A DNA stretch of 40,322 nt from a virus, in the IMG/VR virus record IMGVR_UViG_3300009169_000007, positions 1 through 40,322 of that record. One strand, 5' to 3'. A program made the position numbers and the translations under genes. This document shows, piece by piece, positions 18,592 to 22,647 of this stretch (position 1 is its first letter; each line of letters begins with the position of its first letter). Below the pieces are notes generated by a model. The model saw nothing but the letters and a program-made list of their open reading frames with translations, ran no database searches and had not been told where the DNA came from.

Positions 18592-18882
18592 ATGTGGGAC
18601 TTTGAATATGATTCTAGTAAAAGTTTAAAAAACAAAGACAAACACGGCATCTGCTTTGAAGAAGCACAACAACTTTGGAGTGATAAGATTAAAATTGAAC
18701 TTTTAGTACAGACAGACCCTGAATTACGATTTGTAAAAATTGCCGCTTATTCTAACAGAGTTTGGACGGCAGTTTTTACAGAAAGAGATCTAAAAATCAG
18801 ACTGATTTCTGTACGAAGAGCAAGAAAAAGTGAGGTAGCAATCTATGACAGAGAAAAAAATGATTACGACAGACGAATTTGA
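18592..18882 (+). CDS. brnT: BrnT-family ribonuclease toxin
   Basis: A 96-residue protein with the BrnT layout: FEYDSSKSLKNKDKHGICFEEAQQLW at the N-terminus (read as FEYD, then N..KHGI.FEEA), a central VKIAAYSNRVWTAVFTER strand pair and a closing IRLISVRRARKSEVAIYD. BrnT folds like RelE and cleaves RNA, blocking growth until bound by BrnA. AAGGA lies upstream, and a TATAAT at about 18568-18573 could be the -10 of a local promoter. The downstream brnA overlaps it by 38 bases, as usual for the family. It may stabilise the phage as an episome or act in abortive infection. Confidence 0.85.
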   Translation: MWDFEYDSSKSLKNKDKHGICFEEAQQLWSDKIKIELLVQTDPELRFVKIAAYSNRVWTAVFTERDLKIRLISVRRARKSEVAIYDREKNDYDRRI

Positions 18883-19159
18883 CAGAATTTTTGATGAAGG
18901 CGAAGAGGATATTTTGCAATACGCGGATCTCTCAACAATGACTAAACGCATCAATCTTGATTTTCCTGCGTGGGCAGTTCATAAGCTCGATGATGAAGCA
19001 AAACGCATCGGCGGAACCCGTCAAGCTCTAATTCGTCAGATTGTAATTGGTTTTATTGATAATCGGGAAAAATTTGAGTTCGAAAAGAGAAAATTTGATG
19101 CGACTCAAAAAGAACAAGAAAAGCCTCAACAGCCCCAACAAGAAAAACAAGCAAGCTAA
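18845..19159 (+). CDS. brnA: BrnA-family antitoxin
   Basis: A 104-residue partner of BrnT. Residues about 36-75 form the ribbon-helix-helix domain (INLDFPAWAVHKLDDEAK, then RQALIRQIVIGFI), which binds DNA as a dimer and represses its own operon. The N-terminal acidic helix should wrap the toxin. The C-terminus is a low-complexity tail of Lys, Glu and Gln. GAGGT lies eight bases before the ATG, inside brnT. Two interleaved inverted repeats follow the stop codon. Confidence 0.85.
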   Translation: MTEKKMITTDEFDRIFDEGEEDILQYADLSTMTKRINLDFPAWAVHKLDDEAKRIGGTRQALIRQIVIGFIDNREKFEFEKRKFDATQKEQEKPQQPQQEKQAS

Positions 19160-21371: not shown

Positions 21372-22226
21372 ATGGAATTAAACAAAGTTTACTGTGCAGA
21401 CAATTTAAAAATTATGCAATTGATGGCAAGTGAGAGTATTGACCTTATTTATATTGACCCGCCGTTTAACACAGGACGGTTGCAACGAAATAAAAAACAT
21501 GGACACTCATTTTCAGATTGCTTCAAAAATTTAGACGCATACCTCAGTTTTATGCAACCACGCTTACAACAGATGCATCGGTTACTCAAAAAAACAGGCA
21601 GTTTGTTTGTCCATGTTGACTATCGAGTTGTACACTACTTAAAAGTTGAATTAGACAAAATCTTTAGCCCAAAAAATTTTATCAACGAAATCATATGGCA
21701 TTACACCGGCGGAGGCGGTAAGAGTCTAAAAAGTTTTAAAAAAAGACACGATACAATTTTATGGTATGCAAAAAATAAAAATAATTATTATTTTTGTGAC
21801 AGTTACATTCGGTTACCCTACACACCCCATAAACAAAATAGTAGCGGTAAGAATTATGGCGGAACAATGGGACGAGATGCAAACGGTAGAGAGTACGTTG
21901 AAAAATGGGGAACAGGTAAAAAGAAGAAATATAGATATTATATCGATAAAGGGAAAATGCCCGAAGATGTATGGACAGATATACAATCCATCCAATCTGC
22001 AGCCAAAGAACGCACAGGTTACCCAACTCAAAAACCGATAAAATTACTCCAGCGCATCATTTTAGCAACAACACAACCAAATGATATTGTTGCAGATTTT
22101 TTCTGTGGCTCCGGGACGACATGTAAGGCTGCAGAATTATTAAATAGAAAATGGCTAGCCGTTGACGCAAACCCACAAGCAATTGATTTATTTGTAAAAC
22201 ATAATAATTCAAATGTTAGTTATTGA
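21372..22226 (+). CDS. DNA adenine-N6 methyltransferase, beta class
   Basis: A 284-residue methylase. Motif IV, IDPPFNTG (Asp29-Pro-Pro-Phe), lies near the N-terminus and the SAM-binding motif I, DFFCGSGTT, at about 242-250 after GYPTQKP. This order defines the beta group, which includes CcrM/HinfI-type and type III Mod enzymes. No recognisable restriction partner is adjacent, so it is probably solitary and protects phage DNA or times gene expression. The specificity region (about 110-200) is Lys- and Tyr-rich and gives no clue to the site. The ATG has no strong ribosome binding site. A TTGACA overlaps the stop codon. Confidence 0.9.
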   Translation: MELNKVYCADNLKIMQLMASESIDLIYIDPPFNTGRLQRNKKHGHSFSDCFKNLDAYLSFMQPRLQQMHRLLKKTGSLFVHVDYRVVHYLKVELDKIFSPKNFINEIIWHYTGGGGKSLKSFKKRHDTILWYAKNKNNYYFCDSYIRLPYTPHKQNSSGKNYGGTMGRDANGREYVEKWGTGKKKKYRYYIDKGKMPEDVWTDIQSIQSAAKERTGYPTQKPIKLLQRIILATTQPNDIVADFFCGSGTTCKAAELLNRKWLAVDANPQAIDLFVKHNNSNVSY

Positions 22227-22251
22227 CAGCCTTATTAATTTAATTTAGTAG
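22223..22251 (+). promoter_or_regulatory. Candidate promoter for the hairpin array
   Basis: A perfect TTGACA at 22223-22228 overlaps the methyltransferase stop. Seventeen bases later is TAGTAG (22246-22251), a weak -10. Transcription would start near 22258, at the first hairpin repeat. The exact -35 supports it; the poor -10 keeps confidence low. Confidence 0.35.
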
Positions 22252-22254
22252 TCT

Positions 22255-22437
22255 TTTATCCGCTGCATAAGCGGTTGAGAAATTATGGTTATATGTATTA
22301 TAACTGTATTATCCGCTGTATAGCGGTTGAGAATAATTAATTAGTATTCTTTAAAGACATATTTCCGCTGTATAGCGGTTGAGAAATTATGAATATTAAT
22401 TAATTAATTAATATCCGCTGCATAAGCGGTTGAATAA
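22255..22437 (+). repeat. Four-copy CRISPR-repeat-like hairpin array
   Basis: Four near-identical units contain CCGCT, a 4-5 base loop (GCATA or GTAT), AGCGG, then TTGAGAAA. The CCGCT arms start at 22260, 22313, 22365 and 22415, a period of 50-53 bases. Taking five bases upstream, a unit is 27-28 bases, and the last copy is altered at its 3' end (TTGAATAA). Stem, loop and 3' tail closely follow type I-F CRISPR repeats (5-bp stem, GTATA loop, CTAAGAAA tail). The 23-25 base spacers are AT-rich and partly palindromic (GTTATA..TATAAC; a 22-base TTAA-rich palindrome), unlike foreign protospacers. No cas genes are present. A structured or decoy RNA fits better than an adaptive array. Confidence 0.75.
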
Positions 22438-22470
22438 AAGCTAACTAAGTAATTAGTTGGCTTTTTTCTT
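22438..22470 (+). terminator. Rho-independent terminator ending the hairpin array
   Basis: AAGCTAACTA pairs with TAGTTGGCTT (ten pairs, one G-T) around AGTAAT, followed by six T. It lies immediately after the last hairpin repeat, so a transcript of roughly 210 bases from the TTGACA promoter would consist almost only of the four hairpins. Confidence 0.8.
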
Positions 22471-22498
22471 ATTCAAACCAAAAAAAGATGAAATTAAG

Positions 22499-22591
22499 AT
22501 GACACATAAAAACCGTCCCAATGTTACAAATGTTTTTTTACATTTAAATTGGTTCATTGAAATTATTGACAATTTTTTAAGAGTCTTTTAA
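22499..22591 (+). CDS. Possible 30-residue peptide
   Basis: An ATG-started ORF with a basic start (MTHKNRPN) and an amphipathic hydrophobic remainder (VFLHLNWFIEIIDNFLRVF), followed by a strong terminator 25 bases later. It has no good ribosome binding site, and it may only be the 5' part of a small noncoding transcript. Listed because the flanking terminators isolate it as its own unit. Confidence 0.2.
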   Translation: MTHKNRPNVTNVFLHLNWFIEIIDNFLRVF

Positions 22592-22615
22592 GTTATTGTT
22601 ATCTCAATCAAAATT

Positions 22616-22647
22616 GCGGCGGTTTCCTGTTCCCGCCGCTTTTTTTT
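22616..22647 (+). terminator. Strong rho-independent terminator
   Basis: GCGGCGG pairs perfectly with CCGCCGC around a 10-base loop and is followed by eight T. This is the most GC-rich stem in the accessory region. It insulates the 22746-23102 gene from upstream transcription. Confidence 0.9.

Follow-up and report, generated by a model that had tools for sequence, protein, structure and literature searches.

Positions 22255–22471 (+ strand) of the virus record IMGVR_UViG_3300009169_000007, all 40,322 bases of which make up the window analysed here, carry four 27–28-nt units that resemble the repeats of type I-F CRISPR arrays. The locus is best read as encoding a non-coding small RNA, about 215 nt long, that has four I-F repeat mimics and quite probably acts as a multi-unit RNA anti-CRISPR (a tandem Racr). 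This reading draws on the anatomy of the sequence, its conservation in a sister phage, class membership by model, and the presence of acrIF8 and aca2 beside members of that class. The original prediction, an RNA anti-CRISPR of I-F-like type or else a structured RNA array, is supported: two models (R1 and R2, described below) both select the locus, and the same multi-unit architecture recurs in at least 31 phage records, in some of them behind acrIF8/aca2.

Each unit consists of a 5-bp CCGCT/AGCGG stem, a loop of 4–5 nt (GTAT in two units, GCATA in the other two) and a TTGAGAA-type tail. The first repeat mimic (22255–22282, +; TTTATCCGCTGCATAAGCGGTTGAGAAA) has the loop GCATA and the handle TTGAGAAA; the second (22308–22334, +; ATTATCCGCTGTATAGCGGTTGAGAAT) and third (22360–22386, +; TATTTCCGCTGTATAGCGGTTGAGAAA) have the 4-nt loop GTAT and the handles TTGAGAAT and TTGAGAAA, respectively; and the terminal one (22410–22437, +; AATATCCGCTGCATAAGCGGTTGAATAA) combines an intact stem-loop (GCATA) with a decayed handle (TTGAATAA). 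C6 and G20 are present in all four copies, and under both models the array has the I-F pattern of a 5-bp stem with a C6–G20 pair, a 5-nt loop and an 8-nt handle, departing from it in the 4-nt loops of copies 2 and 3 and the decayed handle of copy 4. The copies follow one another at intervals of 53, 52 and 50 bp and are separated by spacers of 25 nt (22283–22307, +), 25 nt (22335–22359, +) and 23 nt (22387–22409, +). The array is intergenic, and the stretch folds far better than its shuffles (z −7.1). These copies, stems, loops and spacings agree with the original prediction, which was right about the four units, their coordinates and the main description, and also about a degenerate last copy with a terminator directly after it. 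Its description of the spacers as palindromic applies to spacer 1, which forms a significant hairpin by itself, and not to spacers 2 and 3, neither of which does so when folded alone; spacer 3 is a TTAATTAA-rich palindrome, and the 16-bp inverted repeats within the window spacers are low-complexity TTAATTAA.

The intrinsic terminator (22436–22471, +) is a 13-pair hairpin, AAAAGCTAACTAAGTAATTAGTTGGCTTTT, followed by a T tract, and is conserved in the sister phage L027. On the other side of the array lies an upstream segment that may hold a promoter (22223–22254, +), in which TTGACA at 22223–22228, 26 bases 5′ of copy 1 and overlapping the stop codon of a methyltransferase ORF, is followed by AT-rich sequence up to repeat 1. 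The TTGACA predicted right before the array is therefore present, but its role in a promoter is not borne out, because no good −10 box follows it and a promoter scan left it off its list. TTATTGACAG and about 40 further bases are conserved in L027 despite the absence of the methyltransferase there. A second possible small RNA, at 22561–22645 of the window, is composed of TTGACA, an AGTCTTTTA element that also occurs in the upstream segment of the array, and a GC-rich terminator; the surrounding non-coding stretch of well over 100 bases is identical in L027, and the candidate has a weak Rfam PinT score.

To examine the likeness to genuine type I-F repeats, 84,980 species genomes were scanned for the CCGCT/AGCGG stem followed by a loosely defined tail. 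Genuine arrays of 60-bp period with this stem and the GCATA loop occur in Pelistega (repeat GTTCACCGCTGCATAAGCGGCTGAGAAA; the L118 array lies beside Cas6f) and in Gilliamella (repeat ending in TTTAGAAA), with 22 of 23 bases matched from the stem onward. The repeat of Anaerovibrio slackiae, GTTATCCGCTGCATAAGCGGCTTAGAAA, matches copy 1 at 25 of 28 positions, in a genome without a Cas6f match, and no array with exactly this stem plus the TTGAGAAA tail was found in the scan. The A. slackiae array itself (L116:6389–6657) is I-F-like, with five repeats and a 60-bp period, and adjoins ssb and methyltransferase genes, so it may be located in a prophage. Single pattern matches in L036 and L038 were rejected; no second copy accompanies either of them, and they appear to be due to chance.

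Because the scan was seeded with the CCGCT/AGCGG stem, a covariance model (R1) was built from 20 genuine I-F repeats without it, taken mostly from loci around Cas6f genes of Gammaproteobacteria. The best R1 hit in the phage genome is copy 1 (22.1 bits, E 8e-4), with copy 4 at rank three and copy 3 at rank ten; genuine I-F repeats score 34–36 bits, relative to which copies 2–4 score weakly. The Rfam family CRISPR-DR4 (RF01317) aligns to copy 1 over its full 28 positions at 19.9 bits, below its gathering score of 35, and nothing in the window matches Rfam at the gathering threshold. By itself, the evidence from R1 and CRISPR-DR4 for I-F identity is suggestive.

Stronger placement comes from viruses. 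A pattern for I-F repeat pairs with spacers below the normal 32 nt (GGCAGYTNAGAAA-N10-35-CTGCCGNNNNGGCAG) matched 34 other viral stretches, from at least 31 other phage records, and its mirror pattern matched none; two further stems added a few more arrays, including one in L192 with the stem of the window. These arrays hold 2–5 copies, with spacers mostly of 14–26 nt, and 5′ GTTCA is conserved neither in them nor in the window. A at loop position 2 (GAACA, GAATA) is frequent in the class, absent from host repeats (0/24) and seen in L027 and L192. The handle is kept in 51 of 62 internal copies, about one per array being forced by the search pattern, and in only 3 of the 34 last copies, on which the pattern set no such condition; a terminator follows immediately in 16 of the 34 arrays. 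Hairpin spacers are a weak trait of the class (8/55 at p<0.05), and a covariation count on A6 was not used as proof because it is biased by the choice of copies by their pairing.

A second model (R2), for which 44 handle-bearing copies from the class were used and no copy with the stem of the window, has copy 1 as its top hit in the phage genome (25.8 bits, E 1.5e-6), copy 3 second (14.5 bits), copy 4 third (12.6 bits) and copy 2 ninth (8.0 bits), and also detects two L027 copies; thus, by this model, the window array is a member of the class of tandem short-spacer mimics. It likewise has the defining features of the class, with at least two I-F stem-loops, spacers of less than 32 nt and a lost last handle, as well as the terminator that is often present. 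Such pairs with short spacers were rare among 369 gammaproteobacterial genomes: five have them, and four of these five also have Cas6f, within ~13 kb of the pairs on the same contig. One I-F array with irregular, slightly short spacers (G075 contig C3:71717–72602) lies in a genome without a Cas6f match.

Could the array instead have nothing to do with CRISPR and be a structured RNA or DNA element of the phage (iterons of a replication origin, resolvase sites or a sponge for some other RNA-binding protein) whose likeness to I-F repeats arose by chance? The direct repeats near a serine recombinase gene, the weak I-F match of copies 2–4 and the AT-rich flanks would suit such an element, but R2 places all four copies in the top nine of the genome and the handle and terminal-decay pattern fits the class, and we consider this explanation unlikely.

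The RNA anti-CRISPR reading is also consistent with the behaviour of the locus among close relatives. The sister phage (L027/L028), whose TerL is 99% identical to that of the window phage, has a four-unit array at the corresponding position, flanked by the same upstream segment and the same terminator. Stems are intact in all eight copies of the two phages, with one G-C to G-U change, and the loops are GCATA, GTAT, GAATA, GTAA, GATTA and GTATA. Window spacer 1 is a near-copy (23/25) of spacer 3 of L027, the second spacers of the two phages are homologous by alignment, and the others differ; units have therefore been shuffled. L027 has the array and no methyltransferase gene, and the cousins L029 and L031 have the methyltransferase and no array. 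The two thus occur independently of each other, from which the array appears to be an accessory element gained and lost by itself, as counter-defence genes often are. A resolvase site or an origin was rejected, since L029 and L031 retain the recombinase and replication genes without the array.

Known anti-CRISPR genes lie beside several members of the class. Among 118 proteins near class arrays, Pfam matches were found to AcrF8, to Aca2 and, once, to Csy2. When whole records were searched, acrIF8 was present in 4 of 31 class records and 0 of 35 other viral records; it is always placed on the same strand and upstream of the array, either within ~150 bases of it or, in L184, with only aca2 standing between the two. 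L184, with Aca2 beside its array, resembles the acrIF8-aca2 region of Pectobacterium phage ZF40. The genes directly flanking several class arrays have no known anti-CRISPR match. The same is true of the window, where no protein matches a known acr or aca family; the acr-like operon that had been predicted 1 kb from the array consequently has no homology support. ZF40 itself, the classic acrIF8-aca2 phage, has a single handle-less I-F stem-loop, CTGCC-GCACA-GGCAG (L209:1864–1878), ~180 bases downstream of aca2. At L192:11779–13232, a 407-aa ORF with similarity to Csy2 (Cas5f) stands just before about five degenerate I-F hairpins with the stem of the window and then a terminator, possibly protein and RNA Cas mimics side by side.

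The spacers bear on two further alternatives, in both of which the array would act as a guide. In the first, the array is a true CRISPR mini-array derived from the host, and its spacers direct the host I-F Cascade against competing phages, as might be expected from the repeat–spacer layout, the crRNA-like handles and the existence of viral mini-arrays that target relatives (PMC11656645). The spacers are AT-rich and of 23–25 nt rather than 32, are common to the sister phage and moved around in it, and have no protospacers in the 1.6 Mb of loci compared, and the repeats are degenerate instead of exact copies of a host repeat; we regard a mini-array as very improbable. The short spacers and the absence of cas matches among the window proteins, on which the original prediction had argued against an immune array, are both confirmed. 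In the second alternative, the short spacers steer host Cascade by partial pairing to repress a host or phage promoter. Handles combined with short spacers suit partial pairing, and Cas-dependent repression by repeat-like RNAs has been mentioned (PMC10651486), but across the class it is the stem and the handle that are conserved and not the sequences of the spacers; we hold this crRNA-like regulator to be the least probable of the explanations considered. Against both, the class spacers gave no more seed matches next to a CC PAM in their own records than shuffles did; a guide function against own records was rejected for lack of signal. The spacers look like mere linkers, with no above-chance seed matches in own records and no protospacers in the loci compared.

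For a tandem RNA anti-CRISPR, we infer transcription, processing by Cas6f, sequestration and an I-F system in the host. The mimic of RacrIF1, the precedent, is bound and cut by Cas6f and depends on C6 and G20; its upstream cut product carries Cas6f together with a filament of Cas7f, but neither Cas5f nor Cas8f, and its 5′ handle is dispensable (PMC10651486). A non-targeting crRNA also weakens interference (PMC10651486). The tandem form probably yields several truncated, crRNA-like decoys. Host Cas6f would bind each 5-bp stem-loop and cut at the 3′ base of the stem, so that copies 1–3 would release pieces with a 5′ handle (UUGAGAAA or UUGAGAAU) and a spacer of 23–25 nt instead of 32, each ending at its 3′ side in the next stem-loop, retained by Cas6f. 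The last copy would supply a 3′ stem-loop only, leaving its handle free to decay, and the terminator would end the transcript. Such pieces could draw Cas6f and Cas7f away from real crRNAs by competition and, through their handle, probably Cas5f and Cas8f as well; the outcome would be undersized complexes without a useful guide. Across the class, copies with another stem-loop downstream of them retain the handle and those with none have lost it, and from this pattern we infer that internal units give truncated decoys with a handle, a short spacer and a Cas6f-bound end. The handle of RacrIF1 is dispensable, so the handle-dependent part of the mechanism is drawn from conservation. It is conceivable, at somewhat less than even chances, that polymeric Racrs are a separate, widespread type, in which host Cas6f cuts a single transcript into several decoys that retain the 5′ handle, as RacrIF1 does not, and that thereby also trap Cas5f–Cas8f in Cascades of reduced size. 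Fewer Cas7f per decoy complex are hinted at by spacer lengths near 14, 20 and 26 nt, shorter than the natural 32 by multiples of the 6-nt Cas7f footprint; this six-nt periodicity in the class is weak (p about 0.007), was found post hoc and serves as a hint only.

A host with an I-F system is plausible for the window phage, because its nearest named relative is a phage of Silvanigrella aquatica (portal 57%, TerL 40%) and Spirobacillus cienkowskii, of the same order as Silvanigrella, has an I-F system (PMC12321486). The record carries terminase, portal, scaffold and family A polymerase genes; it has no match to named phages at the DNA level, and a portal alignment in genome contigs for a prophage or host found none. 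At 18592–19159 of the window lies a gene for a BrnT-like toxin, with a likely antitoxin gene after it.

The array shares features with several known kinds of element. The genuine I-F arrays of Pelistega and Gilliamella (L046/L118 and L077, respectively) have in common with it the CCGCT/AGCGG stem, the GCATA loop and a near-identical handle, but they differ in their 60-bp period, 32-nt spacers, conserved GTTCA 5′ end and a cas6f in the genome. Measured against a functional I-F array, with near-identical repeats, a 60-bp period and 32-nt spacers, the array falls short in its periods of 53/52/50 and its degenerate copies. Viral CRISPR mini-arrays (reviewed in PMC11656645) similarly place repeats and spacers in a cas-less phage; they have one or two spacers and repeats identical to those of the host and mostly target related viruses, whereas the window has three short, apparently non-targeting spacers and degenerate repeats. 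RacrIF1 and other Racrs (Camara-Wilpert et al., 2023, PMC10651486) are solitary repeat units that, like the window array, are phage I-F mimics outside cas loci, keep the C6–G20 stem base and likely form their own transcription unit, with Racr members near acr genes. The window array differs in its four tandem copies, its 23–25-nt spacers and its handle-less last copy, and with copies 50–53 bp apart it is not solitary in the sense of having no other repeat within 100 bp. The search that defined Racrs discarded full matches less than 100 bp apart and candidates with partial matches in their flanks (PMC10651486), so tandem forms were excluded by design. No report of them was found in a search of the open-access literature. 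The occurrence of the tandem form in at least 31 further phage records, some with acrIF8/aca2 operons, indicates that the known Racr inventory is incomplete. The mechanism is also made testable, first as to whether several decoy guides arise from one phage RNA through the processing enzyme of the host, and second as to whether the conserved handle draws in Cas5f–Cas8f, which RacrIF1 does not.
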